Below, one piece after another: positions 8,729 to 63,759 of a stretch of DNA of 64,000 bases. The notes below the pieces were generated by a model that did not search any database, was not told where the DNA came from, and worked only from the letters and a program-made list of their open reading frames with translations. The position numbers and the translations under genes were made by a program. This DNA comes from Maribacter aquivivus (lineage in GTDB: Bacteria; Bacteroidota; Bacteroidia; Flavobacteriales; Flavobacteriaceae), in NCBI RefSeq assembly GCF_900142175.1, contig NZ_FQZX01000001.1, positions 2,046,001-2,110,000 of the forward strand, given 5' to 3'. The stretch's first letter is position 1. The number at the start of each line of letters is the position of its first letter.

Positions 8729-8771
8729 CTAAGTTATGATAACCAATATTTGATGTAAATGATTTAAATCA
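8729..8771 (-). promoter_or_regulatory. Box promoter for the 8703 gene
   Basis: The box TGATTTAAATCA (8760-8771) is a perfect dyad. The -7-like TAACTTAG (8729-8736) lies exactly 23 nt from it on the minus strand. Dyad centre to start codon is 62.5 bp. Confidence 0.7.
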
Positions 8772-8801
8772 GGTAACAGACGTATTTTGTTTCTACTATT
8801 T

Positions 8802-9212
8802 TTAGGTGATAAGAATGGTACCGGTATAATTGAAAATTTCACATTTTAGAATTTGAAATTTTTTGAAACAATCGCTCATATTAGATTTGAGTTGATTATG
8901 GGCTTGATAATAATATTGATTGTTATTGTTTTCAGGAACATCAAACATTTCGCCTAAAGAATTCTCATGAACAGATATAGAATTGCGAATAGTTTTTATA
9001 TTATATTTCAGTTCTTCTATTTTTGTTTTATAACCTTCTAAACGCTCAAAAAGATTTGGAGTATTAGATTTAAAAGCAGAACTGTTCAGCAAACGTTCTA
9101 AAAAAAGAATTTCATCATCTATTACCTGAAATTGAATTTTCCACTGCTGAATTTTCCAATGCAGCTCTTTTAATTTTTCGTTTTGCTTTGATGTAATCTG
9201 TTGTTTTGCCAT
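8802..9212 (-). CDS. Small helical protein of the W-x8-D-[DE]-x2-F family (member B)
   Basis: 136 residues, cytoplasmic, helical and coiled-coil rich. The family block reads W-KIQFQVID-D-E-IL-F-L-ER-L-L near residues 24-42. Outside it the sequence is very different from member A, so the conserved block is probably the functional part. The C-terminus turns hydrophobic (FNYTGTILIT). It lies next to member A in the same direction, but each has its own box, so they seem independently expressed. Function unknown. Confidence 0.72.
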   Translation of the reverse strand: MAKQQITSKQNEKLKELHWKIQQWKIQFQVIDDEILFLERLLNSSAFKSNTPNLFERLEGYKTKIEELKYNIKTIRNSISVHENSLGEMFDVPENNNNQYYYQAHNQLKSNMSDCFKKFQILKCEIFNYTGTILIT

Positions 9213-9232
9213 TGCATACCTTTGTGTTTTTA

Positions 9233-9274
9233 CAAACTACAACCCTATAAATTCGCGTACAATGATATAAATCA
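9233..9274 (-). promoter_or_regulatory. Box promoter for the 9212 gene
   Basis: The box TGATATAAATCA (9263-9274) is followed on the minus strand by TAGTTTG (9233-9239), a -7-like element one base shorter than consensus. Centre to start is 56.5 bp. Confidence 0.65.
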
Positions 9275-9320
9275 GATGCAGTACAATAATAGTTTAATGA
9301 CCTAGTTATTTAAATGAATT

Positions 9321-10172
9321 CTATTGTTTCATGGAACAAAGTTGATTGACATCATCTAATATTCTTTCTTTTCTTGAAGTAGAAATACCAAGGTGGTCTA
9401 AAAAGAATTTGTCTTTCCAAAGCTGTCTGTATAAAACTATATCTCTACTTAGTAAAAACTGCTTTTCTCTATTAGTTAATAATGTCGACGCGGTTACGGG
9501 ATATAAACCCAATTTGTCTATTCTATCTTTTAGACCATTTTTATGCGGATAATCCCAACTTAATAAATATAGTTCTGCACATTTTCCATATTTAATGGCA
9601 TGTTCGGTAAAACGTGTGTTATTTACAACCCACCCTTTATTTAACTTGTTATTTTTAGATTGTTTTTTATTCCATAGCGTATGAACGTCTTTAAACCTTG
9701 AGTGTATATACAGTGGTGTTTCTACAGTACAATTTAAACCTTCTTCGCCATGAAACTTACATTCAATAATTGTTGTTTCTCCGTTTTTTTCTGCAACCAC
9801 ATCTATTTCATGTGTTACGCAAACACCCTCCATAATTACGTTGCATTTAGTAGAATAATCAGAATATCTTAATAATGAACTAATAAAACGCCCAAAAGGA
9901 AAACCGGTTAGACCAAGTTCATATATGGCCTTTTTTAATTTGTATCTTGATGCAAATACTGATTTTTTATTTTTTAATAATGCAAATGCCCTATTGTAGA
10001 TTTCATTAGTAGTTATACCATCATAAATTTCTCCACCAACCTTACCTACAATTTCTTCAATCATTACATAATCCGCACCACTATGTTTTAAGGAATTTCG
10101 GAGTTTGTTAAAAGAGAATTTCACTTGTATTCCTGAAGATTTTATGATGTCAATTTCTACTTTATTTTCCAT
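9321..10172 (-). CDS. ATP-cone domain fused to an Mrr-like PD-(D/E)XK endonuclease domain
   Basis: 283 residues. Residues about 5-85 (IIKSSGIQVKFSFNKLRNSL, later EIVGKVGGEIYDGITTNEIY) have the ATP-cone pattern known from ribonucleotide reductases and NrdR. Residues about 95-185 carry VTHEIDVVAEKNGETTIIECKF, that is D and E-x-K spaced as in Mrr/PD-(D/E)XK nucleases (E.ID...ECK). The last about 90 residues are unassigned. The architecture implies nucleotide-controlled DNA cleavage or binding, but this is inference. The gene lies between the small-protein genes and the USP block. No box was seen 50-110 bp upstream. It could be read through from 11160. Confidence 0.75.
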   Translation of the reverse strand: MENKVEIDIIKSSGIQVKFSFNKLRNSLKHSGADYVMIEEIVGKVGGEIYDGITTNEIYNRAFALLKNKKSVFASRYKLKKAIYELGLTGFPFGRFISSLLRYSDYSTKCNVIMEGVCVTHEIDVVAEKNGETTIIECKFHGEEGLNCTVETPLYIHSRFKDVHTLWNKKQSKNNKLNKGWVVNNTRFTEHAIKYGKCAELYLLSWDYPHKNGLKDRIDKLGLYPVTASTLLTNREKQFLLSRDIVLYRQLWKDKFFLDHLGISTSRKERILDDVNQLCSMKQ

Positions 10173-10320
10173 TTTTTTAATTTAATCTACTTCTTAAGTA
10201 AAAAGTACTCACCGCCTAAGCCTTAGTATGGTTTGGTTCATGCTATCTTTCTTTTTCTGATATGTAGGTTTTTAGCATTATGAGCTTTATTTTTTATTCC
10301 TATTGAATTTCTAAATAGCT

Positions 10321-11160: not shown

Positions 11161-11182
11161 TGCTTATTTTTTAAGGATTTTT

Positions 11183-12075: not shown

Positions 12076-12912
12076 TTAATTTTGTGGGAGTACCATAAAG
12101 GGAACATTAATATGTAATCCTATTTTTTTTATTATCGGTTCAATAAATAATCGCTCTAAAAATGTGTGTTTATTCTTGACCATTACAAGCAGGTTTATTT
12201 TATACTTAATCTGAAATTCATTAATTGCCTCTATAATACCATTGTCTGGTAATTCATGTGACAATGCATATTTTCCTAATATTTTTTCAAGCACTACTTT
12301 GTTCTTTTGCTGAATTTCAGTGAGGTCATAGCCTGTTCGTACATGCATTACATTTATTCTTGATTTGTGTTGGGTGGCTATTGCCAACAAACTTTTCATA
12401 TTTTCTTTTTTATATTCAATTTCATAATCAGTAGGAAACAATATTTCTAAAGGAGCTTCATATTCAAAATTTGGCGGAACGGCAATTACGGGGCAATTTG
12501 CTTTTCTTATTACGTGAACCGTATGTGTGCCAAATAAAATATCATTGGCACCGGTAACGCCTTTTGTTCCCATTATTATAACATCAATATTTTCTGCGGT
12601 CACAGTTTCTAAAACTTCACTTATTAGTGTGTTAAAAGCAGAATGAACAATAAAAGTATGGTTAGGGTTTTGATATTGATGTTCTAGTAAATCTTTTAAT
12701 TTCTCTAATTGTGTCATGCTATTTTCTTGAAAAACATCACCTAAACCAATTTGACCCGGACTGCCAATAATGTATTCTGTTTGATAAATAGGGGGAGTGT
12801 AGGTATGGAGTAAATAGAAGGTTGCTTTTATATTCTTATAGATATTTAACGCGTAACGAATTGCTTCAATTGAATTTTGGGAAAAATCAGTTGGTAAAAG
12901 AATTCGTGACAT
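12076..12912 (-). CDS. Universal stress protein, tandem domain
   Basis: 278 residues. Domain 1 begins ILLPTDFSQNS and has the nucleotide loop GTKGVTGANDILFGTH. Domain 2 starts ILFPTDYEIEYKKEN and lacks the loop, carrying instead NKHTFLERL and IGLHINVPFMVLP. It is the first gene of a two-USP operon. It is closest to the 15129-16019 protein (shared TPPIYQTEYIIGSPG versus TPIFYRIDYIIGGP), showing recent duplication within the cluster. Confidence 0.9.
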   Translation of the reverse strand: MSRILLPTDFSQNSIEAIRYALNIYKNIKATFYLLHTYTPPIYQTEYIIGSPGQIGLGDVFQENSMTQLEKLKDLLEHQYQNPNHTFIVHSAFNTLISEVLETVTAENIDVIIMGTKGVTGANDILFGTHTVHVIRKANCPVIAVPPNFEYEAPLEILFPTDYEIEYKKENMKSLLAIATQHKSRINVMHVRTGYDLTEIQQKNKVVLEKILGKYALSHELPDNGIIEAINEFQIKYKINLLVMVKNKHTFLERLFIEPIIKKIGLHINVPFMVLPQN

Positions 12913-12936: not shown

Positions 12937-12979
12937 TAAAATTAGAGTAGAGGTATTTCTTTGACCATGATCTTGGTCA
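12937..12979 (-). promoter_or_regulatory. Box promoter for the 12912-11223 USP operon
   Basis: The box TGATCTTGGTCA (12968-12979) lies 23 nt from TAATTTTA (12937-12944), a good -7. Centre to start is 61.5 bp. The rest of the gap to the gene end at 13183 shows nothing recognisable. Confidence 0.75.
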
Positions 12980-16036: not shown

Positions 16037-16882
16037 TTATCTTGGTAGGTTCTGCATGACCAAGAATGGAATTTTAGGGTTTAATCCAATATCTTCTACT
16101 GTTGATTTATAGAGCATATCTTCAAGAAATGAGTGTCTTGCATTGACCATTACCAATAAATTAATGTCATTTTTTAGAATGAATTCCATAATGGCCTCTC
16201 CTTTGTTTTTAACGGGCGAACGCTCATGAAATATAAAGGCATCGGGTAAAGATTCTTGTAAAAACAACTTGTTGTCAGCTTGTCTATGACTTAGGTCTTC
16301 AAAATCTGAAATATAAAGACAATGTACTTTCGATTTAAATTCTGCAGCTAACGTATTTAAGAGTTTAAGCTCTCTTCGTTTATATGGAAGCATATAATCT
16401 GTAGGAAATAGAATTCTTTTAGGTTGTTGATATTCATAGTTTTCTGGAATGGCCAGAACAGGACATGAAACGTACTTAAATACTTGTACGGTATTGCTGC
16501 CAAATGTTATTTTTTTATTTGCGGTTTTACCCTGGGTACCCATAATAGTTATATCAACATTAATTTCGTTGACAGCATTATTTATGGCATCTACTAATGC
16601 TTCAAAAGATGATATAAATTCAAAATGGTGTTTTGGGTTGTGGTAAGTATTGGTGAGATCCGTTACTAATTTTTTCAATGTTTCATGTACATAAGTACGG
16701 GTTATATTTTTTTGCTCTTCTATTGAATTACCTCCGTTGTTTTTAAATGGACCGTAGACCTCGTCTGCATATGCATGTAAAAAATAGAAGTTGGTACGCT
16801 CACATTTGTACAGTTCAAGTGCATATTTTATGGCATGCATTGCATTAACAGAAAAATCGGTCGGAATTAAAACTGTGGTCAT
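16037..16882 (-). CDS. Universal stress protein, tandem domain
   Basis: 281 residues. Domain 1 is VLIPTDFSVNAM with loop GTQGKTANKKITFGSN. Domain 2 is ILFPTDYMLPYKRREL and then ARHSFLEDM, IGLNPKIPFLVM. It is the first gene of the predicted four-gene operon USP-USP-ROK-USP. Confidence 0.9.
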   Translation of the reverse strand: MTTVLIPTDFSVNAMHAIKYALELYKCERTNFYFLHAYADEVYGPFKNNGGNSIEEQKNITRTYVHETLKKLVTDLTNTYHNPKHHFEFISSFEALVDAINNAVNEINVDITIMGTQGKTANKKITFGSNTVQVFKYVSCPVLAIPENYEYQQPKRILFPTDYMLPYKRRELKLLNTLAAEFKSKVHCLYISDFEDLSHRQADNKLFLQESLPDAFIFHERSPVKNKGEAIMEFILKNDINLLVMVNARHSFLEDMLYKSTVEDIGLNPKIPFLVMQNLPR

Positions 16883-16901: not shown

Positions 16902-16944
16902 TAAAAATATTTCTCTCGTAACTTCATTGCAATGACATAGGTCA
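16902..16944 (-). promoter_or_regulatory. Box promoter for the 16882-13183 operon
   Basis: The box TGACATAGGTCA (16933-16944) lies exactly 23 nt from TATTTTTA (16902-16909). Centre to start is 56.5 bp. The box continues as AATGAC...GTCATT, an 8-bp half-site symmetry. Confidence 0.8.
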
Positions 16945-16974: not shown

Positions 16975-17826
16975 TCACCCTTGAAGCGAAAGAAGAGGAA
17001 TGCTTGTTTTAAAACTTACTTCTTCTACGGTGGTATCGAGAAATATTTTTTGTAATAAATTATAATCTTTTGAAATCATTATGATCAAATCTGCATTTAT
17101 GCTTTTTGAAAATGATTGAATTCCATGTTCTATCTTTTTAGACACTACCCTGTGAAAGCTGACATTATTCGGTATTTTTAAAGAGAGACGCTTTGCAAAT
17201 TGTTTTTGAAGTACTTCAATTTCCTCTAAAAGTGGAATTTTCGATTTGGTAACATATAATAAATTGATATGTGTACTCTTAGAAGTTATATAGTTTGAAA
17301 TTTTAAATAAGGTGGTATCGTCATAGGTAATTTCAAAATCAATTGGTAATACTACTTGTTCAAAGTCTTTGAACTTTGTATTTTCTGGAACTACTAGTGC
17401 ATCACATTCTACATTTGTAATTACATCGCCAGAACGGCTACCAATGAAAAACTCTTTAATTTCAGAAGCGCCTTTAGTACCCATTATTATGAGCTCTATT
17501 TTCTTTTCTTCAATATGTCGTTGAACCGAAGATAAAAAATAGCCTTGTTCGCAAATTGATGTAAAATGATGATGTTCTTTTTTTGAGGAAACCGCCATTA
17601 TAAACTTTTCTAAGTTTTTTAATTTTTTATTTATGGCTTTCGGCTCTAATTCAACTAGAATATTTGTGCCAAACTCATAAATAGGCTTTTCTGTAAATTT
17701 TGAACCCTCAATGTTGACGTATAGTAAATAAAACTGGCAGGGAGTTTCTTTAAAAAAATCAAGTGCATAACGTATGGCATTTTTTGAATTTTTTGAAAAA
17801 TCTGTTGGAATCAAAATTTTTTTCAT
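16975..17826 (-). CDS. Universal stress protein, tandem domain
   Basis: 283 residues. Domain 1 is ILIPTDFSKNSK with loop GTKGASEIKEFFIGSR. Domain 2 is strongly divergent (VVLPIDFEITYDD, no loop, ending IPLLSLQG). It is a single gene, divergent from the TerB-like gene and sharing a central box with it. Confidence 0.88.
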   Translation of the reverse strand: MKKILIPTDFSKNSKNAIRYALDFFKETPCQFYLLYVNIEGSKFTEKPIYEFGTNILVELEPKAINKKLKNLEKFIMAVSSKKEHHHFTSICEQGYFLSSVQRHIEEKKIELIIMGTKGASEIKEFFIGSRSGDVITNVECDALVVPENTKFKDFEQVVLPIDFEITYDDTTLFKISNYITSKSTHINLLYVTKSKIPLLEEIEVLQKQFAKRLSLKIPNNVSFHRVVSKKIEHGIQSFSKSINADLIIMISKDYNLLQKIFLDTTVEEVSFKTSIPLLSLQG

Positions 17827-17853: not shown

Positions 17854-17927
17854 GAAAAATACTTTTGATAATAGACAATAACAATGATTTTAATCATTGA
17901 TGTTTTAGCAAGTACATTCTATATTTA
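17854..17927. promoter_or_regulatory. Single box serving two divergent promoters (17826 leftward, 17954 rightward)
   Basis: The box TGATTTTAATCA (17885-17896) is a perfect dyad, extending to AATGATTTTAATCATT. At exactly 23 nt on each side lies a -7: TATTTTTC leftward (17854-17861) and TATATTTA rightward (17920-17927). Centre-to-start distances are 64.5 and 63.5 bp. Confidence 0.82.
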
Positions 17928-17953: not shown

Positions 17954-18355
17954 ATGGAAAATACATATCAAATTAAGAGTGAGCTTTATAAAAGCCTAGG
18001 CAAATTATTTTACGCGGTTGCCATATGTGATGGCAGTGTTTATTTAAAAGAATGGGATAAAGTTGAAGAAATGGTAAAAAAGTATTGGCGTAAGGTTGAT
18101 GATTTTAAAGATAATAGCGGTACTGCTTTAGCAGATCAAATTGAAGTTGTATTCGATTGGCTTTTAGAATATGAAAAGACTAGCGATGAGTGTTTTGAAG
18201 AATTTAGAGAATTCTATGAAAAAAATCCACAGGTCTTTACTAAAAAAATCAAATCATTGATTAAGAAAACCACTAAAGCAATTGCCAATTCATTGTTGAA
18301 GAAAAATAAATCGGAAAAAAAGATTTTAAAAAGAATTGATTTGTTATTAAAATAG
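17954..18355 (+). CDS. TerB-like small cytoplasmic protein
   Basis: 133 residues, all-helical and Lys/Glu-rich, no signal peptide. Residues about 10-45 (LYKSLGKLFYAVAICDGSVY, then LKEWDKVEEMV) have the TerB/DjlA-like pattern of a buried helix followed by an 'A.aDG.v...E...i' motif, in which acidic residues can bind metal. TerB-type domains occur in tellurite-resistance and general stress contexts. The match is by eye and the domain is short, so this is a family-level suggestion only. It is expressed from the box shared with a USP and converges on the USP ending at 18398. Confidence 0.6.
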   Translation: MENTYQIKSELYKSLGKLFYAVAICDGSVYLKEWDKVEEMVKKYWRKVDDFKDNSGTALADQIEVVFDWLLEYEKTSDECFEEFREFYEKNPQVFTKKIKSLIKKTTKAIANSLLKKNKSEKKILKRIDLLLK

Positions 18356-19232: not shown

Positions 19233-19544
19233 TTATATAGCTTTTTTACGCTGTTGAAATTTTTCTTTACGCTTTCTCAATTGACGGTCAAGATCCCTTA
19301 AAGTATTGGCGGCAGATTTTTCAAAGTTGTTTTCGTTAGATTTTGCAAATATTCTTGGTCCTGGAGCACTAAGTTGTATTTCACAGATTTTATCATTGCC
19401 ATCTGTACTGTTTCCCAATTTGAAAAAAACCTCGGCACGAATGATAAACTGATATTTGTGTTGAAGTTTTTGAAGATTACGGGTTACTATTTCACTTAGC
19501 GAGTTGCTTTCAGGCATATGAAGGTATTGGAAATTAACGGTCAT
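19233..19544 (-). CDS. hpf: Ribosome hibernation promoting factor (short HPF / sigma-54 modulation family)
   Basis: 103 residues, the size of short HPF/RaiA. It has the beta-alpha-beta-beta-beta-alpha layout and ends in a basic helix (LRDLDRQLRKRKEKFQQRKK) that contacts 16S rRNA in the family. It has no long-HPF C-terminal dimerisation domain. The product would dock in the 30S decoding centre and inactivate ribosomes during stress. It is the first gene of an HPF-USP operon with a consensus box promoter. Confidence 0.88.
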   Translation of the reverse strand: MTVNFQYLHMPESNSLSEIVTRNLQKLQHKYQFIIRAEVFFKLGNSTDGNDKICEIQLSAPGPRIFAKSNENNFEKSAANTLRDLDRQLRKRKEKFQQRKKAI

Positions 19545-19566: not shown

Positions 19567-19609
19567 CAAAAATATTAATGTCGTTCTTTTCTTAAAATGA
19601 CTTGTGTCA
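19567..19609. promoter_or_regulatory. Box promoter for hpf (leftward), box also 62.5 bp from 19666 (rightward)
   Basis: The box TGACTTGTGTCA (19598-19609) lies 23 nt from a perfect -7, TATTTTTG (19567-19574), on the minus strand; centre to hpf start is 59.5 bp. Rightward the nearest -7-like element, TAATTTTC (19626-19633), is closer than standard, so rightward activation is less certain. Confidence 0.82.
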
Positions 19610-19665: not shown

Positions 19666-20118
19666 ATGGCACTTAATTTTAATAAATATGCAGCAGAGGG
19701 TAATACTTTTTTAAAAGACTATGCCAAAGAAATGAACATGGCAAATGATACAGATAAAGCAGGTAGAATTTTTACAGCAATTATGCATGCGCTTAGAGAT
19801 ATAATACCAATGGAAGAGTCATTACAGTTTATATCTCAATTACCAATGTTTGTAAAAGCCGTCTATGTGAATGGGTGGGCGGTTAAGAAGAATAAACCCA
19901 AAATAAAAAAGATGGAAGATTTCTTAGATTTGGTTCGTTCTCATGATTATCCGGCAGCAACTAATGATTTTGAATACAACAACGATGTAGCTGAACGCTA
20001 TGTAGACACAACCTTTATTTATCTTAGAAAATATATTTCTTTGGGTGAAATGGAAGATTTGAGAGACAATTTGCCTAAGGATTTAAAAAGTATGATCTAC
20101 TTAAATATGATGTTTTAA
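19666..20118 (+). CDS. DUF2267 family protein
   Basis: 150 residues, helical, cytoplasmic. The arrangement 'D.a.rifta.mhaLrd.i..ees.qfisQLPmfvk..yv.gW' at residues 30-70 is the DUF2267 signature. The domain is often found beside stress-regulated genes (USP, BON, Hsp20), but its biochemical role is unknown. Divergent from hpf, with the start 62.5 bp from the shared dyad. Confidence 0.82.
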   Translation: MALNFNKYAAEGNTFLKDYAKEMNMANDTDKAGRIFTAIMHALRDIIPMEESLQFISQLPMFVKAVYVNGWAVKKNKPKIKKMEDFLDLVRSHDYPAATNDFEYNNDVAERYVDTTFIYLRKYISLGEMEDLRDNLPKDLKSMIYLNMMF

Positions 20119-20300: not shown

Positions 20301-20927
20301 TTACTTTATAACACCTTCTTTTTCCAATTGTAGTATTATTCTTTTAACGTAGTCTTCAATAGTAGAAGTTATGTTATTTGGATCAACAATATCAAATGTA
20401 CCCACCCAAACTAATGATTCGTCATCACTGGTCTTTAAATTGTAAATGGAAGTTTCTATATGAAAAATTTTATAGTTTGAGTAATACTCAGGTGTGTAGT
20501 ATACATTTTGAAAACGATAATAGTAACGACCAAATCGATACCAATTATTACCAATAGTATAATAACCAGAGTTATAATCTTGTTTATCATCTATACCAAC
20601 TACTGCGGTAATTGCAATAGCGTCAAAGCCCTTGTTCAGTAACTCTTTTTTAAGGACATCTATTTCTGATTCATTTTTTTTTGAATCGGTAAATGTCATG
20701 CTGATTTCTTCACTACTTTCAATAGCATTTATACCTCTAAGGTAAAGGGCATTTTTCATTTTCTCCTCAAAAATTTTACGAGCCGTTAAGTTATTCGTCA
20801 TACCAATAACCAACATTTTTTCAGGTTTGAAGACCGTAATTTCGTTGTTTTTCCAACTATCTATAAACCTTGTTGAAGAGCAAGAGGTCAATAGAACAAC
20901 CAGTATTATATAGCCTGCTGTTTTCAT
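20301..20927 (-). CDS. Unknown lipoprotein, 208 residues
   Basis: The signal peptide ends VVLLTSC, a lipobox. The mature part begins SSTRFIDSWKNNEITVFKP and resembles the small Bacteroidota lipoproteins with a nucleoside-recognition-like alpha/beta fold (KMLVIGMTNNLTARKIFEEK, then a 'GFDAIAITAVVGID' strand). A Tyr-rich patch (YYTIGNNWYRFGRYYYRFQN) sits at residues about 125-150. The C-terminal third (FHIETSIYNLKTSDDESLVW) looks like DUF4136-type domains. Function is unknown. It has its own box promoter, and its neighbour 21110 is transcribed away from it under a second box. Confidence 0.7.
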   Translation of the reverse strand: MKTAGYIILVVLLTSCSSTRFIDSWKNNEITVFKPEKMLVIGMTNNLTARKIFEEKMKNALYLRGINAIESSEEISMTFTDSKKNESEIDVLKKELLNKGFDAIAITAVVGIDDKQDYNSGYYTIGNNWYRFGRYYYRFQNVYYTPEYYSNYKIFHIETSIYNLKTSDDESLVWVGTFDIVDPNNITSTIEDYVKRIILQLEKEGVIK

Positions 20928-20950
20928 CTTTTTAGTTTAAAATTTGTAGA

Positions 20951-20993
20951 TAAAACTAGTATGTTAATTAGCATATTAAAATGATGTAAGTCA
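20951..20993 (-). promoter_or_regulatory. Box promoter for the 20927 lipoprotein gene
   Basis: The box TGATGTAAGTCA (20982-20993) lies 23 nt from TAGTTTTA (20951-20958). Centre to start is 60.5 bp. Confidence 0.78.
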
Positions 20994-21043
20994 TACTATA
21001 CTCAATTACATTGGTACAATTGAAGACAAAAACGATGTTCACA

Positions 21044-21086
21044 TGACCAGCATCATTTTTAAATACACTGTAGCGGAATATTTTTG
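21044..21086 (+). promoter_or_regulatory. Box promoter for the 21110 gene
   Basis: The box TGACCAGCATCA (21044-21055), then 23 nt, then a perfect TATTTTTG (21079-21086). Centre to start is 60.5 bp. It is 62 bp from the opposite-facing box at 20982, so each divergent gene here has its own box. Confidence 0.82.
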
Positions 21087-21109
21087 TAAAATCATAAAAC
21101 CCAATTATC

Positions 21110-21748
21110 ATGAAATATTTAATAATAACATTTTTTATAGTAGTTTTTTTCTTACCGGTTACCATAGGCGCACAAGATTTAAAGGATATTGATGAAATTG
21201 CACCTTTTAGTGAAGGTTTTGCAGCTATAAGAAGGGGAGAAGAGTGGGGCTTTATAAATGAAAAGGGAGATTTGGTAATACCTTTTAGAGATGATATTTA
21301 TTGGGATAAAAATGCGGATACATCTAAATTAGATTTATCCGGTGTACGATATCCTATGTTTAAGGAAGGTAGATGTTTAATAAGTGAAATTGTAGAGGAC
21401 GGTATTACAATTGTTGGTTTCATTGACACAGATGGAAAAGTTGTTATAGAACCACAATTTTTAAATATTTATCCATTTAAAGATGGTTACAGCACAGGTG
21501 TCTTATTTGATAAGGCATATAAGGGTGAGAATGAATTTAAACTAAAGATTTATGATTTAAAATTCTTTGATGTATTGGTGGATACTTCTGGTCATATTGA
21601 AGAATATTTTGAAAGACGACATAATATTCAAATGACCAAAAGAAGATACAAATTACCACCCATTATGGCAAAGCGATTAGTGGGTAATCTTGTTGCATTA
21701 CGTAGCGAAGGTGATGGATGGGAAATTCGTAAAATAGAATACAAGTAA
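21110..21748 (+). CDS. Secreted WG-repeat protein
   Basis: 212 residues with a cleavable signal peptide (hydrophobic stretch, then IGAQD). Two WG beta-repeats are clear: EEWGFINEKGDLVIPF near residue 45 and VGFIDTDGKVVIEPQF near residue 105. WG repeats form beta-hairpins in secreted or periplasmic proteins of unknown activity. The preceding promoter is among the best in the window. A flavin-binding lipoprotein gene follows in the same direction. Confidence 0.8.
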   Translation: MKYLIITFFIVVFFLPVTIGAQDLKDIDEIAPFSEGFAAIRRGEEWGFINEKGDLVIPFRDDIYWDKNADTSKLDLSGVRYPMFKEGRCLISEIVEDGITIVGFIDTDGKVVIEPQFLNIYPFKDGYSTGVLFDKAYKGENEFKLKIYDLKFFDVLVDTSGHIEEYFERRHNIQMTKRRYKLPPIMAKRLVGNLVALRSEGDGWEIRKIEYK

Positions 21749-51162: not shown

Positions 51163-51672
51163 ATGAAAAAAGTATTATTAGGATTATTAGCAATTGGGTT
51201 CACCGGTCAGGTTTTTTCCCAAATTATTAAAACAGAACAGCTTTCTGAAGTTACTGTTTTTGCCACAAATTATAAGTATTTAAGCGATATGAATACCAAA
51301 GAAGAGGTATCTATACCTGTTGAGTTATTACAACGTAAGGTAGCGGCATTCGATGTAAAAGAGTCAGAGTTTTACCAAGATGATTATGATACATACCAAA
51401 TCAATTTTTTTATACCCGAAGGAACTATTTTGGCTGCATATGACGCGGATGGAAAACTAGTACGAACTGCAGAAAGATTTAAAAATGTCAATTTGCCAAA
51501 AGCGGTAAGAGAATCTGTATATAAGCGTTTTCCGGGGTGGACAATTACAAAAGATATTTATTTGGTTAATTATCAAGAAGCCAAAGGAGCAAATAAGAAG
51601 TATAAATTAAAATTAGAAAACGGTGAAAAAGTTGTAAGGGTAAAGGTAGACGAAATGGGAAATTTCCTTTAA
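51163..51672 (+). CDS. Secreted PepSY-like protein
   Basis: 169 residues, signal peptide ending GQVFSQ. The second half (GTILAAYDADGKLVRTAERF, then LPKAVRESVYKRFPGWTITK, and YKLKLENGEKVVRVKVDEMG) follows the beta-alpha-beta pattern of PepSY-like/BLIP-like domains in Bacteroidota periplasmic proteins. Function unknown; protease inhibition is known for some relatives only. First gene of an operon with dodecin and the archease-like gene. Confidence 0.72.
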   Translation: MKKVLLGLLAIGFTGQVFSQIIKTEQLSEVTVFATNYKYLSDMNTKEEVSIPVELLQRKVAAFDVKESEFYQDDYDTYQINFFIPEGTILAAYDADGKLVRTAERFKNVNLPKAVRESVYKRFPGWTITKDIYLVNYQEAKGANKKYKLKLENGEKVVRVKVDEMGNFL

Positions 51673-54102: not shown

Positions 54103-55536
54103 CTAACTGCTAAAAAGTAACCAAAGTTGAGTTACAAAAAAGCAAACTATAAAACCTAGGGTCAGCGGTAATAATGCCGAAATAATGGTCCATTTTATAC
54201 TTTTGGTTTCTTTGTAAATTGTGTAGAGTGTAGTTGAACAGGGGTTGTGAAGAAGGCTGAACAGCATTAAATTAACGGCTGTTAAAAGTGTCCAGCCGCC
54301 AGCGGTTAATATTCTTTTGGTATCTGCAACAGAATCAAGTTCAAACATAACACCGGCACCTTCGCCAATATCAATTAAACCTGAATTTACTACGGTGAGC
54401 ATAAGTATGGTAGGAATTACAATTTCATTTGCAGGTATGGCAATTATGTAAGCAAGTAATATTACCCCGTTAAGACCAAAGTAAAAAGCAAAGGGATTTG
54501 CCCAATCAATAAAATATTCAGCTAAGCTTAATTCACCGGTATATATGTTAGCTACCAGCCAAATAATAATGCCTGCCGGAATGGTAAAAGCAATAGCACG
54601 CCAAAGAACAAGAATTGTTCTATCTATTAATGACGTATATAATGTTTGTAAAATTCGAGGAGGTCTATATGGTGGTAATTCTAAGCTGAAAGTGGATGCC
54701 TGGCCCCTTAAAATAGATTTGCTTAAACCCCATGATACTAAAAGACTGAAAACAATACCTAATACAGCAATACTAACTACTGCTCCTGCAGATACCAATC
54801 CTGCCCAATGAGATGGAACCAAACCACCGATAAATATAGTTGCTATTAATATTTGCGTTGGCCACCTACCATTACATAGCGAAAAGTTATTGGTAATAAT
54901 GGCTATTAATCTTTCTCTAGGACTATCAATAACCCTAGTTGCGACCACACCGGCAGCATTACAGCCAAATCCCATGCTCATTGTCAAGGCTTGTTTGCCA
55001 TGTGCGCCAGCTTTTCTAAAAAGGCTATCCATGTTAAAGGCTACTCTGGGCAGGTATCCTAGATCTTCCAATAATGTGAATAAAGGAAAAAAGATAGCCA
55101 TTGGTGGTAGCATTACCGAAACAACCCAGGCAAATGCCATATAAGCCCCGTCGATTAAAACACCATCTAACCACCAAGGCATTCCTATTTGCGATGCAAT
55201 ATTCTTTAAAAACGGATGAATAGTATCCAATAATATGGCAGCTAACCATGAAGATGGAATATTTGCGCCAGCTACAGTTATCCAAAAAACGATTGCCAAT
55301 AGCAAAAACATTATAGGAAAACCAAACCATTTGCTGGTTATTATGTTATCTATTTTTTGATCTAAAATTGTACTGTTCTTAGCATCTTCTATTTGTATAC
55401 TTTGCTTGGCAATTTTAGAGGCATCTGCGTAAATTGACTCTATAATTTTATCATGAAAATCTATTCCCAACTCCCAACGTAACGTGTTGGTCAATGAGAT
55501 AATATCATCGCTTTTTATTTCTTGATTATTGAACAT
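54103..55536 (-). CDS. feoB: FeoB membrane permease subunit (split FeoB)
   Basis: 477 residues, about eight to ten membrane helices. It contains the two Gate/Cys regions of Feo[19 protein letters not shown] with [15 protein letters not shown], and [10 protein letters not shown] in place of the more common PCxARLP. A short N-terminal cytosolic piece continues the spacer domain of the G protein. The start is 18 bp after the stop of the GTPase gene, and both frames are clean, so the split is natural rather than a sequencing frameshift. Imports ferrous iron, which predominates under low oxygen. Confidence 0.9.
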
Positions 55537-55554
55537 TATTTAAAACAAAAGTTA

Positions 55555-56340
55555 TTATACTGATTTTAGATTTTCACTTAATTGTCCTAATTCTTCTGTC
55601 CTTACTGCTTCAATAATGCGTTGATCTCCTTCTAAAAGCCTTAATGCGACCCAATTTAAGTTGGGTATGTTTTTAAACTTTCTTGAAAGTTTTTCTACTA
55701 AAAGAGCAACTGCATGATCTAGTTTGGGAGAAAAGCTCTTAATACGATGTGGCTTGCAAACATATTTTCCTGTAGCTACGTTCTCAATAGTATTTATGAG
55801 TACATCCATCCCTTTTTTTTGACGGGCCACCGCTGTAACAACAGGTATACCCAATGCTTTTGATAATGCCCTGTCGTTTATTTTAATATGGTTGCGTTCG
55901 GCCTCGTCCATTAAATTAAGACATAGTACTGCTTTATCTGTAATCTCAAGTATTTGAAGTACTAAGTTAAGGTTGCGTTCTAAACGGGTTGCATCGGCTA
56001 CTATTACAGTGACATCAGGTTGGCCAAATAAAATAAAATCACGTGCAACTTCTTCCTCTTTACTTGTTGAGAGTAAGGAATATGTGCCAGGTAGATCTAC
56101 CAGTTTATACTGCTTGCCTGCATATGAATATCCACCTTCAGCTCTGGTAACGGTTTTTCCCGGCCAATTGCCGGTATGTTGGCGTAGCCCTGTTAGATTA
56201 TTGAATACCGTACTCTTACCGGTATTTGGATTACCCGCAAGGGCAATGACATAGTCGTATTGATCTATTCCAATGCCAAGTCTAATTAATTGTTCTTTAC
56301 GATACGCTTGACAATTCTCGCAACCTCGCTGTTTGCTCAT
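55555..56340 (-). CDS. feoB: FeoB GTPase subunit (split FeoB)
   Basis: 261 residues. G1 [10 protein letters not shown]2/Switch I threonine in [12 protein letters not shown]3 DLPGTYSL and G4 LNLMDEA (N-x-x-D) are all intact. A Cys-containing leader ([12 protein letters not shown]) precedes the G domain, a feature of some Bacteroidota FeoB proteins that could bind metal or a partner. Its start overlaps the end of the DtxR-FeoA gene by 44 bp, so translation is coupled. Confidence 0.92.
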
Positions 56341-57385
56341 TTTTATTTTGCCTTGATTTTATATAAATGTTATCTGCTTGCTTTTTTCTGATAGCAATGG
56401 TAGCACCCATTATTTTGTATGCCGTAGGATCGCCAAAAGCGCTCTTTAATACTGCAGAAATTTCTGTGCCTGGTACAATGCCAAGATCCATTAAACGTAT
56501 ACGCTCTTGACCACGACATTTAGGTGAAATTCCAATAACCTGGGCTTTGTCTCCCACATTTAAAGAAGAAAGTGTTTGATATTTTTTTTGTGTAGGCTCA
56601 ATTTTAGATAGCTTTTCTACGGTAATGTTTGACGCAAAAAGAACATTGAGAATACACTCTTTTCCGTTTGCCGCAAATTGAATCTTTTCATCTGTAACAT
56701 CCATAATATAAACTTCCATGCCCGGGTAAAGGTCTAAAGCGACTAGTTGGGCATATATGATAGACGGTTCGTCTTCTATATGGGTAATTCTGGCTATATC
56801 TCCCTCTTTCAATGAACTTAAAGAAGATTGCACTTGGTATGTAGGTAATTCTCCTTTATTTGTAGGTATTGGGTCGCCATGTGGATCAAAAACGGGGTTA
56901 CCCATATTTGCGGCTAAAATATCAACTTCTTTTAATGACATAAGGTGTTCTTTTGAATCTGCCCCATGATGCCATTCTACATTACCAATTGCAGTTTCAT
57001 CAGCCAGGTACTTTTCCCATAAACGGTGTATTCTTATTATTTTAAGCGCATCTGATCTACCAGCGTCAGTTAGCCTAATTTGGTCTTCTTTCATTACAAT
57101 TAGACCTATAGATTGTAACTGTGTTATAATCTTGGCAGCTTTATTTGTAGATAGGTTCATATTGCCCGAAATTGAATGTAAACCACAACTTTTATGTTTG
57201 TACTCACAATCAAAAATAAATTTTAGTGCATCTTCTTGTAGCTTCCGTTTCATGTTCTGTGATCTTTTTGACCATAATGAAATAAGCCCTTTTCTAGGCC
57301 AAAGTAGCCATGCCAATAGCATCAGAAATATAGTTCCAATTAATAGTGCAGTAATAGGCTTTAACAAAAGTACCATGAGTTTCAT
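56297..57385 (-). CDS. Membrane-anchored DtxR-like winged helix fused to two FeoA domains
   Basis: 362 residues. One N-terminal membrane helix ([19 protein letters not shown]) is followed by a DtxR/MntR-type winged helix (about 50-115; [20 protein letters not shown]). Next come a dimerisation/metal region with H and E ligands ([11 protein letters not shown]..., [14 protein letters not shown]) and two SH3-like FeoA domains (about 190-262 and about 270-345, the second with [20 protein letters not shown]). A soluble repressor would not need a membrane helix, so it may instead be a FeoA-type partner of FeoB that keeps a vestigial or membrane-bound regulator domain. Translationally coupled to FeoB. 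Confidence 0.82.
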
Positions 57386-57443: not shown

Positions 57444-57486
57444 TAAATCTAGAAAGAACTAGAAAAGAAAGAAATGATTAAAATCA
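57444..57486 (-). promoter_or_regulatory. Box promoter for the feo operon
   Basis: The box TGATTAAAATCA (57475-57486), 23 nt, then TAGATTTA (57444-57451). Centre to start is 95.5 bp. No Fur or DtxR operator was recognised by eye. Confidence 0.68.
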
Positions 57487-57774: not shown

Positions 57775-57848
57775 TAAATATATTCCGTGATTTAATTTAA
57801 GCACATGACAGGGGTCATTTGAAAGCATATTGAATACTGATATTTTTG
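57775..57848. promoter_or_regulatory. Single box serving two divergent promoters (57749 leftward, 57873 rightward)
   Basis: The box TGACAGGGGTCA (57806-57817). At exactly 23 nt on each side lie TATATTTA leftward (57775-57782) and a perfect TATTTTTG rightward (57841-57848). Centre-to-start distances are 62.5 and 61.5 bp, the latter measured to the TTG start at 57873. Confidence 0.82.
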
Positions 57849-59076: not shown

Positions 59077-59119
59077 TGATTTGCATCATGGTAATGATGT
59101 AATGTTGAACGTAATTTTA
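59077..59119 (+). promoter_or_regulatory. Box promoter for the 59140 gene
   Basis: The box TGATTTGCATCA (59077-59088), 23 nt, then TAATTTTA (59112-59119). Centre to start is 57.5 bp. Confidence 0.78.
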
Positions 59120-59139: not shown

Positions 59140-59898
59140 ATGATGTTAGAAACTATATTACCGCAAGATGGGCTAAATTACTTTCAACAACTGGCTTCTG
59201 TAGAGATTGATAATCAAATTTGGTTTGTAGCCGATGATGTCACTAAAATGTTGGCATTGAACGACCCAGTAAAAGTGTTGGAAATTTTAGATGAAGATGA
59301 ACGAAATTTAGCTGAAATTTATAGGGATGGTAAGTTGAAATCAATGAACTTAATTTCTGAAAGTGGATTATATGCATTGATTTTACGAAGCGATACCGAC
59401 AATGCCCATAAATTTCGAAAATGGATAACCAACCATATATTACCATTACTTAGAGTTCAGGGATATTATACCACAAAACGTCTAGAAATACCAAACTTTG
59501 TTATTCGTTTTAATGATAATTGGAATAGGGTAGATAAGGGATATTTTTCTGTGTTGAGCGAATTGTTTATTCGTCTATATGGTCGATTTGAACACGAAGG
59601 TTATACCTTGCCAAGTAGGGCATTGAACGGTAAAGAAATGCGTCCAGATATTAGTGTAGCCAATTATTTTGACGAATATTTAAAAGAAAAGCATCCCGAA
59701 AAAAGAGCCAATTATAAAATTTATAAACATCGACTGCCCAATGGTAGGGAAATAGAAGCGAGACAATATCCAAATTACTTGCTTCCTGTTTTTATTGAAT
59801 TTATTGATGCTGTATGGCTTCCTAATTATGCCTACAACTATTTTAAGAGTAGAGATATTAAGGCTTTGGCATATTTGCCTAAATTAATATTGAAATAG
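59140..59898 (+). CDS. Bro-N (phage antirepressor-like) domain protein
   Basis: 252 residues. Residues 20-110 follow the BRO family N-terminal pattern (IDNQIWFVADDVTKMLALND, later NLISESGLYALILRSDTDNA, HKFRKWITNHILPLLRVQGY), which binds DNA in phage and baculovirus proteins. The second half (about 120-252) has no recognised domain and includes YKHRLPNGREIEARQYPNYL. Neighbours are not phage genes and the codon use is like theirs, so it seems a domesticated gene placed under the stress promoter. Confidence 0.85.
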   Translation: MMLETILPQDGLNYFQQLASVEIDNQIWFVADDVTKMLALNDPVKVLEILDEDERNLAEIYRDGKLKSMNLISESGLYALILRSDTDNAHKFRKWITNHILPLLRVQGYYTTKRLEIPNFVIRFNDNWNRVDKGYFSVLSELFIRLYGRFEHEGYTLPSRALNGKEMRPDISVANYFDEYLKEKHPEKRANYKIYKHRLPNGREIEARQYPNYLLPVFIEFIDAVWLPNYAYNYFKSRDIKALAYLPKLILK

Positions 59899-60753: not shown

Positions 60754-60827
60754 GTAATCTATGTAGGATTACAAAATTTAAAAATGACCTCAGTCATTAC
60801 ATATGATTTTAAAAGGCTATAGATTAA
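60754..60827. promoter_or_regulatory. Single box between divergent genes 60731 and 60850
   Basis: The box TGACCTCAGTCA (60785-60796) is 59.5 bp from both start codons (the right gene starting at the ATG at 60850). At 23 nt on each side are TAGATTAC (60754-60761) and TAGATTAA (60820-60827), weaker -7 elements. Confidence 0.68.
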
Positions 60828-60849: not shown

Positions 60850-61869
60850 ATGAAGGCAGCGTATCTTGTTAAATATGGAAATGCCGAAAAGGCGTTTCAA
60901 ATAGGGGAAGCCAATAAACCTCACCCTAAACCAAATCAAGTATTAATAAAAGTTGAGGCCTTCGGTTTAAATTTTGCAGATGTTATGGCGCGTTTGGGAC
61001 TCTATAAAGCTGCGCCTAGATTACCTGCTATTTTAGGATATGATGTGGTAGGTAAAATAGAAGAAATTGGTGCAATGGTAGACCATGTAAAGCTAGGCGA
61101 CAGGGTTGTTGCATTGACCAAGTTTGGCGGATACGCAGAATTTGCATTGGCAGACATAGATGTTGTACATAAAATACCTGATTCTTTCTCTGCAGGTGTT
61201 GCTGTTGCTCTGGCTACCCAGTATAGTACAGCATATTTTTTAAGTCATAATATGGCCAATTTACAAGAACAAGACAGTGTACTTATACATGCCGCAGCCG
61301 GTGGGGTAGGAACGGCACTTGTACAAATGGCATTGCTTAAAAAGTGTGTCGTTTTTGGTACATGTGGTTCTCAAGAAAAAGTAGCTTATCTAAAGAGTAA
61401 CGGTGTGCAATACCCAATAAATTACCGAATAAATGATTTTGAAAAAGTGGTTGGTAATGTAATGGAGAATAATGGGTTAGATGCAGTTTTTGATCCAGTT
61501 GGCGGGTTGTCGGTTAAAAAAGATTATCGGTTGCTTGGGGCTGGTGGCAGGGTATTTTCTTTTGGTGTTTCTAGTATGAATAAGACTAAAACCATATTTG
61601 GAAAATTACGTGTGTTTTGGCAATTTGGGTTATATCATCCAATTCAATTTTTGAGTGGTTCTAAGGGAATGATAGGAATTAATATGTTGAAAGTTGCAGA
61701 AGAAAACCCAAATAAAATTGCAAAGGTTATGCAAGAGGTCATTCGCTTGACAGAAACAAATATTCTTAAGCCACATATTGGTGGAGAATATCAAGTTGAA
61801 CAACTTGCAGAGGCTCACGCATTTTTAGAATCTCGAAAATCAATGGGTAAAATTGTTATAAAATGGTAA
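60850..61869 (+). CDS. Zinc-type alcohol dehydrogenase superfamily: quinone oxidoreductase-like MDR enzyme
   Basis: 339 residues from the ATG at 60850 (an upstream TTG at 60832 is rejected on spacing). It has the MDR fold: GLNFADVMARLGLYKAAPRL early, LPAILGYDVVGKIEEIG, then the NADP loop HAAAGGVGTALVQMA (AAxGGVG). No catalytic or structural zinc cysteines occur, so it belongs to the zinc-independent VAT-1/quinone oxidoreductase branch, which reduces quinones or enones with NADPH. Four bp before an SDR gene, so an operon. Confidence 0.86.
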   Translation: MKAAYLVKYGNAEKAFQIGEANKPHPKPNQVLIKVEAFGLNFADVMARLGLYKAAPRLPAILGYDVVGKIEEIGAMVDHVKLGDRVVALTKFGGYAEFALADIDVVHKIPDSFSAGVAVALATQYSTAYFLSHNMANLQEQDSVLIHAAAGGVGTALVQMALLKKCVVFGTCGSQEKVAYLKSNGVQYPINYRINDFEKVVGNVMENNGLDAVFDPVGGLSVKKDYRLLGAGGRVFSFGVSSMNKTKTIFGKLRVFWQFGLYHPIQFLSGSKGMIGINMLKVAEENPNKIAKVMQEVIRLTETNILKPHIGGEYQVEQLAEAHAFLESRKSMGKIVIKW

Positions 61870-61873
61870 TGCT

Positions 61874-62812
61874 ATGAAGAACAATTACTTAAAAAATAAA
61901 GTGGCTTTGGTAAGCGGCTCAAGTATGGGTATAGGTAAGGCAATTGCTTGGGAGTTGTTGCAGCAAGGGGCAAAAGTAATTTTAAATGGGCGTGATTATG
62001 AAAAGTTAATACGTACAAAAAATGACTTTTCTACTAACGGTTTTAAGGTGAAGTCAGTAATTGCAGACATTCGGGATCAAGATAAATGCAAGTTTTTGAT
62101 TGAGCAAACCATAAGTATTTATGGTCAACTAGATATTTTGGTGAATAACGCCGGCATGAGTAGTAGAGGGTCTATTGAACATTCTTCAGATAAAAATTTT
62201 ACTATTCTTTCTGAAACTAATTTTACCGGTGCCGCCCACTTAAGTAAATATGCAATTCCCTTTCTAAAAGAAACAAAAGGTCATGTTATTTTTATAAATA
62301 GCGTTGCTGGTTTTAGAGGAATGCCTTTCAATTCTGCTTACAGTGCTTCTAAAATGGCTCAAGCAGCCCTGTCAGAAGCATTAAGAATAGAGTTATATGA
62401 TTTTGGTATTCATGTTGGAATTGCCTTTGTGGGATTTACTCAAAACGATCCGGATAAAAAAATTTTGGACGTAGATGGTTCACTTGTGTATTTACCCAAA
62501 CGTAACAATTTGCGATTGGCCACTGCAGAATCTGTGGCAAAGAGTATTCGTATAATGATTGAAAAAAGGAAAAAAAGAATAACCTTAACAGGATTGGGAA
62601 ATTTAGCCAATTTTATATTTCGTTATTTTCCTATATTCAGTAATTGGTTAATCTGGCTTAATCGTGAAAAAATAAAAAGCCAGTATACAATGATCGGTGG
62701 TAAAAAAGTAAATGAAAATGCTCAGGTAAATAACCAATATAAAGAAATAATTACTGGGGTAGAAGGTAAGGTAAAGACGGTTTTAAAGTCCCCCAACATT
62801 AAAACTTATTAA
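61874..62812 (+). CDS. Short-chain dehydrogenase/reductase
   Basis: 312 residues. Classical SDR: NAD(P) motif GSSMGIGKA (TGxxxGxG type), NNAG in LVNNAGMSS, catalytic Ser in INSVAG and the YSASK motif (Y-x-x-x-K). A C-terminal extension of about 65 residues with a hydrophobic stretch (ANFIFRYFPIFSNWLIWLNR) suggests membrane association. The last 30 bp overlap the end of the convergent USP gene. Substrate unknown. Confidence 0.88.
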   Translation: MKNNYLKNKVALVSGSSMGIGKAIAWELLQQGAKVILNGRDYEKLIRTKNDFSTNGFKVKSVIADIRDQDKCKFLIEQTISIYGQLDILVNNAGMSSRGSIEHSSDKNFTILSETNFTGAAHLSKYAIPFLKETKGHVIFINSVAGFRGMPFNSAYSASKMAQAALSEALRIELYDFGIHVGIAFVGFTQNDPDKKILDVDGSLVYLPKRNNLRLATAESVAKSIRIMIEKRKKRITLTGLGNLANFIFRYFPIFSNWLIWLNREKIKSQYTMIGGKKVNENAQVNNQYKEIITGVEGKVKTVLKSPNIKTY

Positions 62813-63628
62813 AGGAACTGTACTTTTTTTTACCATTGTTTTTACCAGGTCTGAATGAAAATATTTATTGTAAAAAGTATTTTCTTTTCGTTCTAACATG
62901 GCCAATACATCAGCTTTGGTATGTTCAAGGTACCATAGCAGGTCTTCTATAAATTTTTCTGAAAAGACTAAATCAAATTCTATTTTGGCATAGTCTACTT
63001 TTGCTCTTACGTCTTCTTTGAACCATTCCATTTGAGCCTCTACTTCGTTTTCCTTTCCTGTAGTTATATGTACAACTCTAATTTGTGCATTGAATTTATT
63101 AGCAATATTTGCCAGTTTATTGATAGCGAAAATATCTGCTGTCTCAAAATCTGTAGCGTAAATTATTTTATTGAAATGTATTTTTTCACATCCTTTAGGT
63201 ACCACTATTAATGTACAAGGAGATTTTCTTAGAAGCGAAATTGCCGTATTTCCCAATAGAAACTCTTTAACCGTGTTTGTTCCCTTAGCTCCAACACATA
63301 TAAGGTCTACACTAAATTTAACGGCTTTTTCTAAAAGACTGTTCGTAACCGAATTTTCTTCATCAACGACAAAACTTATATTTAGATCATTTACCGGTTC
63401 GTCTATATGTTTTGCAAAAAAGTTTTTCAACATCTTGCGATTTTTAACATAATGTTTTTTTTCTTTTTTCAAGTAGGTTAGCGTTACCGTGCTAGCAAGT
63501 GTTATAGGTATATCAAAAACATGTATGATAATCAATTTAGCATTGAATTTTTTAGCTAAAATATATGCAACCCGTAACGCCGAAACGGAATTTTCTGAAT
63601 AATCGGTAGCATATAGAATAGTCTTCAT
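62783..63628 (-). CDS. Universal stress protein, tandem domain
   Basis: 281 residues. Domain 1 is ILYATDYSENSVSAL with loop GAKGTNTVKEFLLGNT. Domain 2 is IIYATDFETADIFAIN without a loop, ending VPLISFNV. It is paired with the 57873 gene by sequence (shared 'MEWFKEDV/DALKEKV' and 'DVLAML/DMVVMLERE.....K.FH.D.VK.M' segments). Its stop codon lies inside the end of the SDR gene (convergent overlap). Confidence 0.9.
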   Translation of the reverse strand: MKTILYATDYSENSVSALRVAYILAKKFNAKLIIIHVFDIPITLASTVTLTYLKKEKKHYVKNRKMLKNFFAKHIDEPVNDLNISFVVDEENSVTNSLLEKAVKFSVDLICVGAKGTNTVKEFLLGNTAISLLRKSPCTLIVVPKGCEKIHFNKIIYATDFETADIFAINKLANIANKFNAQIRVVHITTGKENEVEAQMEWFKEDVRAKVDYAKIEFDLVFSEKFIEDLLWYLEHTKADVLAMLERKENTFYNKYFHSDLVKTMVKKSTVPLISFNVGGL

Positions 63629-63653
63629 GACAGTAGTTTTTTGTTTGTAGATA

Positions 63654-63695
63654 TAAATCTAAGGTTGCCACTTATCAAAAGAAATGATGAAGGTC
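63654..63695 (-). promoter_or_regulatory. Box promoter for the 63628 USP gene
   Basis: The box TGATGAAGGTCA (63684-63695) with TAGATTTA (63654-63661), one base closer (22 nt) than standard. Centre to start is 61.5 bp. Confidence 0.68.
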
Positions 63696-63716
63696 ATAAT
63701 TGGTTTTTCATGCTAA

Positions 63717-63759
63717 TGATTTAGATCATTTCTTGCAGGGTATTTCTCTTATAGATTTA
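63717..63759 (+). promoter_or_regulatory. Box promoter for the partial gene at the window's end
   Basis: The box TGATTTAGATCA (63717-63728), 23 nt, then TAGATTTA (63752-63759). Centre to start is 59.5 bp. The facing box for the USP gene lies 33 bp to the left. Confidence 0.76.

Follow-up and report, generated by a model that had tools for sequence, protein, structure and literature searches.

In the window analysed here, a 64-kb stretch of Maribacter aquivivus DNA (C1:2046001-2110000 in the 4.58-Mb genome), one promoter design recurs over an island of genes: the dyad TGAYNNNNRTCA is followed, at exactly 23 nucleotides (nt), by the -7 box TANNTTTR. The counts given below confirmed this single design, and its reading as class II promoter architecture of the CRP/FNR type is very likely right. 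If the response regulator encoded at 41956-43023 is added as the activator of the island and a survival programme as its output, a full reading is obtained in which our confidence is fairly high.

Promoter design in the window, the genome and the family

The window contains 36 dyads, whereas 100 dinucleotide shuffles averaged 3.9 and never gave more than 8, so that none reached 36. An earlier note on this DNA had described about 30 boxes and two auxiliary ones, with five to six expected by chance; the boxes are real, their number is now larger and the chance expectation from shuffling is lower. All but one of them (35 of 36) are situated between 8760 and 63728. Contrary to the earlier note, which had seen no box in the gaps of the polysaccharide utilization locus (PUL), one dyad (6966-6977) lies in a gap near this locus, without a -7 box at 23 nt. 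The exact TANNTTTR box accompanied 19 dyads at 23 nt, giving 20 promoters as the dyad at 57806 counts for both directions, and seven further dyads had a -7 box with one mismatch at this distance. Exact -7 boxes were found 20 times at 23 nt versus 8 times over all other spacings between 5 and 59 nt combined. The seven perfect TANNTTTG cases noted earlier were all among those present, each in the same place. When 100 kb from the window start were searched with at most one mismatch in the -7 box, 40 pairs at 23 nt contrasted with a mean of 2.9 at other spacings; this longer stretch holds 48 dyads, 34 of which have a -7 box matching at least 5 of 6 positions.

Coding sequence makes up 86% of the window, yet 31 of the 36 dyads were intergenic with regard to a greedy set of open reading frames (ORFs), and two of the other five (20982, 21044) fall into a gap between larger ORFs (20928-21109). 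Predicted leaders were mostly 10-30 nt long. Where the dyad is more distant from the gene, with 108, 99, 148, 103 and 95 bp between its centre and the ATG for 28132, 34797, 47012, 51054 and 57475, respectively, the -7 box still keeps the distance of 23 nt, as had been noted before; it is exact in three of these cases and has one mismatch in 28132 and 51054.

The island extends further than the border at 63.8 kb given in the earlier note. Boxes run on to C1:2133908, past the window, and the whole island (island 1) spans about 79 kb. Nor is the design restricted to this island: of the 50 exact promoters in the genome, 24 belong to island 1, 15 to a further cluster at C2:801-897 kb (island 2), and 11 lie elsewhere. 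With spacers of 10-35 nt, 50 of 77 dyad-TANNTTTR pairs had exactly 23 nt. The dyad alone was rejected as a genome-wide marker, with 345 occurrences versus 285 in the read-backwards control.

In 149 Flavobacteriaceae genomes, 2165 matches at 23 nt were detected versus 217 at 22 nt and 247 at 24 nt, with 79, 85 and 97 matches per 149 genomes in the read-backwards controls of these scans (79 for the 23-nt pattern). The pattern was present in 137 of the 149 genomes, and together with the 50 promoters of the own genome this rejects the idea of a design unique to the window island. A sample of 198 genomes from the phylum yielded 348 matches in 19 members of the family (control 15), 22 in two members of a different family from the same order and 139 in 28 other genomes of the class (control 15); the remaining 149 genomes had mostly 0-2 matches, with a maximum of 8. 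Hence, restriction to Flavobacteriaceae was not borne out: the 23-nt pattern is concentrated in this family, yet present elsewhere in the class.

Judged by the regulator, the nearest named relatives belong to Maribacter (identities of 97% and 95%). When 24 relatives' loci with such a regulator were searched, including one that is only 40% identical (L070), 136 promoters were found at 23 nt, and no other spacing between 5 and 49 nt gave more than 3, whereas 56 other loci of the same search, matched mainly via the receiver domain, had 2 promoters at 23 nt. The 136 sites are 136 different 49-mers, with orthologous sites in close species. A gene follows within 500 nt in 127 of the 136 cases, and 34 of these genes match nothing in the two islands. 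Thus, the spacing peak outside the window that the earlier note had suggested to look for was found both genome-wide and in relatives, and together with the intergenic preference it supports the class II CRP/FNR reading.

The sigma-A box TAnnTTTG has been mapped at -12 to -5 in Flavobacterium psychrophilum, according to the available text of its start-site map (PMC9723704). With the -7 box in that position, as taken over from the other species, and the 23-nt spacing, the 12-nt dyad is predicted at -47 to -36, with its centre at -41.5. E. coli CRP and FNR activate class II promoters from this position. Class II features present in the sites are the symmetric dyad of CRP/FNR type and its single fixed register relative to the core promoter. 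The 23-nt architecture probably serves at least two CRP/FNR paralogues; given its presence in 137 of 149 genomes, the island then appears as one regulon written in a common promoter grammar.

Two sub-motifs could be distinguished within this grammar. Sites of island 1 have a pyrimidine at position 5 and a T at position 14 in 19 of 24 cases each, compared to 4 of 15 each in island 2, where A at position 14 was more frequent (8 of 15 versus 1 of 24); the Fisher p values are 0.002, 0.002 and 0.0008, respectively. A strict island-1 pattern, TGAYYNNNRTCATTT-N20-TANNTTTR, recovers half (12) of the 24 exact promoters in island 1. Island 2 (L039-L044) has in or around it genes for a cbb3 oxidase (ccoN/O fusion), a P-type ATPase, nosZ and hemN, an FNR-like regulator (best NCBIfam model Fnr with 107 bits, under the cut-off of 228), cytochrome bd subunit II and several starts of genes resembling those for universal stress proteins (Usp), one of them confirmed as Usp by Pfam.

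The candidate activator and its relatives

The regulator at 41956, to which the earlier note had pointed, is still the best activator candidate and likely activates the island, as judged from the sequence evidence. The gene (41956-43023, + strand) encodes a protein of 355 amino acids with receiver, cNMP_binding and HTH_Crp domains according to Pfam, here called REC-CRP type A. It overlaps by 29 nt the gene for a sensor histidine kinase of 1050 amino acids (38832-41984, + strand) with several PAS domains, HisKA, HATPase_c and one LOV-type domain. As the receiver (Response_reg, 97.7 bits) has a DIMMP motif with the acceptor Asp and the gene of a partner kinase overlaps, phosphotransfer from this kinase to REC-CRP may be expected. 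In the nucleotide-contact stretch of CRP, an Arg contacts cyclic AMP (cAMP). REC-CRP has GTYVENA where the corresponding stretch of M. tuberculosis CRP reads GPRTSSA, so that the cAMP-contact Arg-Ser/Thr is lacking. The protein is therefore a member of the superfamily and not a CRP, a difference that would suit a regulator controlled by phosphorylation instead of cAMP.

The LOV-type domain covers kinase residues ~500-630 and contains GTNCNFLQ, a GxNCxFLQ motif with the adduct cysteine. Its best PDB match (E = 2.8e-31) is labelled as a sensor-domain diguanylate cyclase and has NC-FLQ in common with it; a blue-light photoreceptor, phototropin and aureochrome are among the 60 chains listed. Flavin-binding light sensing by this domain would be plausible.

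The kinase/REC-CRP operon is itself preceded by an exact promoter of this design (38451-38493, + strand), with TACATTTA as -7 box and a predicted start 334 nt before the kinase ATG. A second, island-2-like dyad (38423-38434, + strand) is located 28 nt upstream and is a candidate input site for another CRP/FNR protein. Among the 21 of 24 relatives' loci that were compared (L052, L055 and L061 excluded), an exact promoter stood ahead of the operon in 13 and a second upstream dyad in 8, in 6 of these island-2-like at positions 5 and 14. We read these dyads as putative autoregulation with input from another CRP/FNR protein. A co-directional upstream gene lies within a few bases of REC-CRP or overlaps it in 19 of the 24 loci; a kinase motif was found in 16 and GxNCxFLQ in 12 of these 19 genes. 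At L061, no intact regulator ORF passed the filter used (1 of 24 loci). Four Maribacter loci (L053, L054, L068, L069) have a kinase-less type A REC-CRP that still has the same promoter ahead. In the island extension, a stand-alone receiver (L037:16329-16715) is 48% identical to the receiver of REC-CRP. Also in L037 (1981-6373), a CheB-CheR-PAS protein adjoins a PAS histidine kinase, and the upstream dyad has a -7 box with two mismatches.

Over the family, REC-CRP proteins fell into type A (at least 54% identity and 395 bits; 11 genomes) and type B (38-48% identity, 234-295 bits; 64 genomes), with both in 9 genomes; as at most 13 candidates were scored per genome, a REC-CRP could be missed. The island-1 sub-motif was present in 11 of 11 genomes with type A, in 43 of 55 with type B only and in 16 of 83 with neither (9 of 63 when at least 90% complete), these and the following co-occurrence counts being regardless of phylogeny and genome size. 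When genomes of at least 90% completeness were grouped by their regulators (FNR-like orthologues taken at 208 bits or more), the mean number of matches to the dyad-N23-TANNTTTR pattern (N23 matches) was 2.6 with neither REC-CRP nor FNR-like but some other CRP-like match (n = 9), 10.3 with FNR-like only (n = 43), 17.2 with REC-CRP without FNR-like (n = 28) and 28.0 with both (n = 35). Sites of the island-1 type averaged 0.19 with FNR-like only, 2.0 with REC-CRP only and 2.9 with both, and those of the island-2 type 3.3 and 4.7 in the latter two groups. The 11 genomes of this completeness that gave no match at all to the FNR-like query had 4 N23 matches together and none of either sub-motif; all 20 genomes without such a match had 25, of which 16 came from one 73%-complete genome, and three of 3.0-3.4 Mb and 99% completeness (G039, G073, G087) had zero. 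The grammar as such thus goes with the presence of CRP/FNR proteins, and the island-1 sub-motif with REC-CRP.

The two types also differ in the recognition helix. In 34 type A loci scanned, 30 type A helices were obtained, 29 of them with ETAIR; the exception is L070 (40% identical to the window protein), two loci with type B-like helices (L058, L060) were excluded and four gave none. All 31 type B helices listed, many of which represent the same gene twice, read E(S/T)(L/F)IR. Sites in type A neighbourhoods more often have C at position 5 (43% versus 8%) and T at position 14 (75% versus 44%).

The own genome also has a type B REC-CRP (C3:509779-510807), behind a PAS kinase. Among the 14 PDB matches of the first PAS domain of this kinase, 13 were to haem-PAS domains of FixL or DosP type, including two chains ('Heme pas sensor protein' and 'yddU') which we take to be E. 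coli DosP; the other was labelled as a multi-sensor histidine kinase. The His aligned to that of FixL, presumably the proximal haem ligand, is present in 20 of 20 type B kinases from relatives. The type B kinase is a candidate for haem-based oxygen sensing. In 17 of 20 relatives' loci the gene after type B REC-CRP is a universal stress gene, the other three lacking this arrangement; with the own copy, 18 of 18 such genes match Pfam Usp. The gap in front of usp contains an exact dyad-N23--7 promoter in 17 of these 18 and one with a single mismatch in the last. A module of FixL-like PAS kinase, REC-CRP type B, class II promoter and usp is accordingly found in 18 of 21 loci (L046:5850-9322 on C3 and L157-L176), and is possibly the ancestral unit of the island control.

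Proposed mechanism and competing explanations

Starting from the sites, their spacing, conservation and co-occurrence, we infer the following scheme. The dyad would be the site of a CRP/FNR-superfamily dimer that activates from the class II position, where its location at -47 to -36 would replace the usual upstream promoter contact. The overlapping PAS/LOV kinase would phosphorylate the receiver of REC-CRP, whose CRP-type half would then bind (A/C)TGAYYTANRTCATTT dyads. By the dyad in front of its own operon the system could amplify itself, and the second upstream dyad could allow another CRP/FNR protein to prime the operon. The output would be a survival programme comprising Usp, Hsp20, ribosome hibernation, class II reductase, PfkB kinases, BON proteins, the PEP-utilising enzyme, the P-type ATPase and iron uptake. 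Low oxygen or a redox change, perhaps together with blue light via the LOV domain, is a plausible trigger.

Several observations weigh against this scheme. Ten of the 36 window dyads have no fitting -7 box, and the genome-wide excess of the dyad alone is slight. Island-1-type sites are missing in 12 of the 55 type-B-only genomes, and genomes with neither type had 24 such matches in 83 genomes versus 5 in 149 for the read-backwards control. One genome of the same genus, with type B and without type A, has zero sites of this type, which supports type A and means that type B alone does not always keep the sites. The LOV motif is absent from 7 of the 19 adjoining upstream genes, REC-CRP has no adjoining kinase in four of the 24 loci, all four from related Maribacter, and 7 of 21 relatives have no dyad ahead of the operon. 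Finally, REC-CRP genomes without an FNR-like orthologue also have island-2-type sites, which therefore do not depend on this orthologue alone, and paralogues may share sites. The idea that the FNR-like protein reads every island-2 site was dropped for the same reason.

In the most probable of the alternatives, an FNR-like protein or some other stand-alone member of CRP/FNR (candidates include C2:801336 and C1:788400) would be the main reader of the island dyads, with REC-CRP as a mere passenger or with a role outside the island. The genome has six HTH_Crp matches, four of them with a common E-x-x-x-R in the recognition helix; the tandem dyad before the REC-CRP operon is island-2-like, and the two sub-motifs overlap. 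Yet genomes with the FNR-like protein and no REC-CRP have about a tenth of the island-1-type sites seen in the reverse case (0.19 versus 2.0), and sites of the two islands differ significantly at positions 5 and 14, so that we consider this alternative unlikely. Repressor operators whose 23-nt spacing reflected overlap with RNA polymerase would be a very improbable explanation. Position alone cannot tell activation from repression, but a repressor can work from many positions, whereas the sharp preference for a single register in the family scan fits contact with the polymerase, and -41.5 is the textbook position of class II activators. An origin from base composition or duplicated repeats was rejected by the shuffle, read-backwards and spacing controls and by the diversity of the relatives' 49-mers and of the targets, which come from many unrelated families, and can practically be dismissed in spite of the AT-rich window (32% G+C) and the paralogy of the Usp genes.

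A wider proposal can be made, which we put forward tentatively and with somewhat less than even confidence. A FixJ-like receiver and a FixK-like CRP/FNR output in one protein would run a dormancy-type regulon in Flavobacteriaceae. The type B module would be ancestral, and a duplicated type A branch with altered helix, often paired with LOV, would have captured the ~79-kb Maribacter island, so that oxygen and blue light may feed two related, yet separable codes on one 23-nt grammar.

Island genes and comparison with known systems

Exact promoters on the minus strand precede Usp genes at three places in the window (12937-12979 before 12076-12912, 16902-16944 before 16037-16882 and 63654-63696 before 62783-63628), the last one being close to an exact plus-strand promoter (63717-63759) before 63782-64234. 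The plus-strand promoter 17885-17927, before 17954-18355, is exact, and its dyad has a one-mismatch -7 box towards a further Usp gene (16975-17826). Another dyad (57806) has exact -7 boxes at 23 nt both ways (57775-57848 in all), with Usp 57846/57975-58736 on its plus-strand side; here, one site may serve a pair of divergent class II promoters. Exact TATTTTTG boxes are found in 19567-19609 (- strand) before an S30AE, ribosome-hibernation-type protein (19233-19544), in 21044-21086 (+) before a WG-repeat protein (21110-21748) and in 34955-34997 (+) before Hsp20 (35035-35499), which is followed by a P-type cation ATPase (35637-38285). The first of these dyads has in addition a one-mismatch -7 box towards DUF2267 (19666-20118).

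The exact minus-strand promoter 26764-26806 (TACATTTG) precedes a PfkB kinase (25769-26734), after which DUF302 and a B12-dependent class II ribonucleotide reductase (23636-25348) are encoded on the same strand; its dyad also has a one-mismatch -7 box towards an M50-CBS protein (26852-27931). The same -7 box is used in 31044-31086 (+) before DUF6799 (31119-31787), and an exact TAATTTTG in 50767-50809 (-) before a PPDK_N/PEP-utilising enzyme (48346-50742) and then a second PfkB (47382-48323). Further exact promoters on the minus strand are 20951-20993 (before 20301-20927), 34766-34808 (CDP-alcohol phosphatidyltransferase, 34104-34703), 44839-44881 and 46981-47023 (BON-domain proteins, 44154-44822 and 46201-46869) and 57444-57486 (Fe-dependent repressor/FeoA fusion 56297-57385, with FeoB pieces). 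In 54103-57385, the FeoB domains are divided over two ORFs beside this fusion. A Bro-N protein (59140-59898) has the exact plus-strand promoter 59077-59119.

One mismatch in the -7 box was seen in 8729-8771 (-) before 8260-8703 (no Pfam match) and, on the plus strand, in 28132-28174 (MBL-rhodanese, 28246-29667), 43055-43097 (43146-43634), 44928-44970 (44993-45400), 51054-51096 (51163-51672) and 60785-60827 (zinc alcohol dehydrogenase, 60850-61869). The dyad with one-mismatch -7 box at 44096-44138 (-) has no near downstream gene on its own strand and could start an antisense or small RNA.

Altogether, the island encodes eleven Usp proteins, of which all but one belong to the window and the last to L037 just past it, the S30AE protein, Hsp20, the class II ribonucleotide reductase, two PfkB, the PEP-utilising enzyme, the P-type cation ATPase, the CBS-M50 protease, BON proteins, FeoA/FeoB and alcohol dehydrogenase. 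Genes beyond the first may be transcribed from the dyads as well.

The promoter code is tied to an unusual fused response regulator and to sensors that are candidates for perceiving oxygen and light. It can be read across a major family of marine bacteria: the 43-nt pattern, peaking tenfold at a single spacing, predicts regulons directly from sequence. A literature search by title and beginning of the abstract gave no report of the motif, the 23-nt spacing or a receiver-CRP regulator; its terms were narrow and its coverage partial, so that this is weak evidence for novelty. In the main text of PMC9723704, as far as available, 'crp' and 'fnr' are absent.

Like the class II promoters of E. coli CRP and FNR, the sites described here have a symmetric dyad with TGA in the half-site core and a fixed register, with a predicted centre at -41.5. 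Unlike there, the Bacteroidota -7 box TAnnTTTG takes the place of the -10 hexamer, the likely activator has a receiver domain and the half-site starts with A/C-TGAY instead of TTGAT or TGTGA. As in the LOV histidine kinases that serve bacteria as blue-light sensors, the multi-PAS kinase has the LOV signature with its cysteine, which its closest solved relatives share; it differs from them by its pairing with a CRP-type response regulator. With the FixL-FixJ-FixK system of rhizobia, the type B kinase shares FixL-like haem-PAS similarity, and the CRP/FNR output is likewise tied to genes of low-oxygen type. The roles of FixJ (receiver) and FixK (CRP/FNR output), however, are united in one polypeptide here, and the clearest sensor of the type A kinase in the window is LOV, unlike in FixL.

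The output domain of DosR from M. tuberculosis is of NarL/LuxR type, whereas REC-CRP, from another phylum, has HTH_Crp and no such domain; the island system may thus work like, but is not, the DosR regulon. Its targets resemble, in their kinds of gene, the hypoxia and dormancy genes of M. tuberculosis, for which the available part of PMC8044303 names hspX/acr, pfkB, nrdZ, ctpF and universal stress protein, and cites one study in which the pfkB-acr cluster was DosR-independent. As in DosS/DosT-DosR (PMC8044303, available part), two-component control would extend over Usp, an alpha-crystallin-type Hsp, pfkB, an nrdZ-type reductase and a cation P-type ATPase; this suggests a survival programme resembling that of DosR, which Bacteroidota would have evolved independently.

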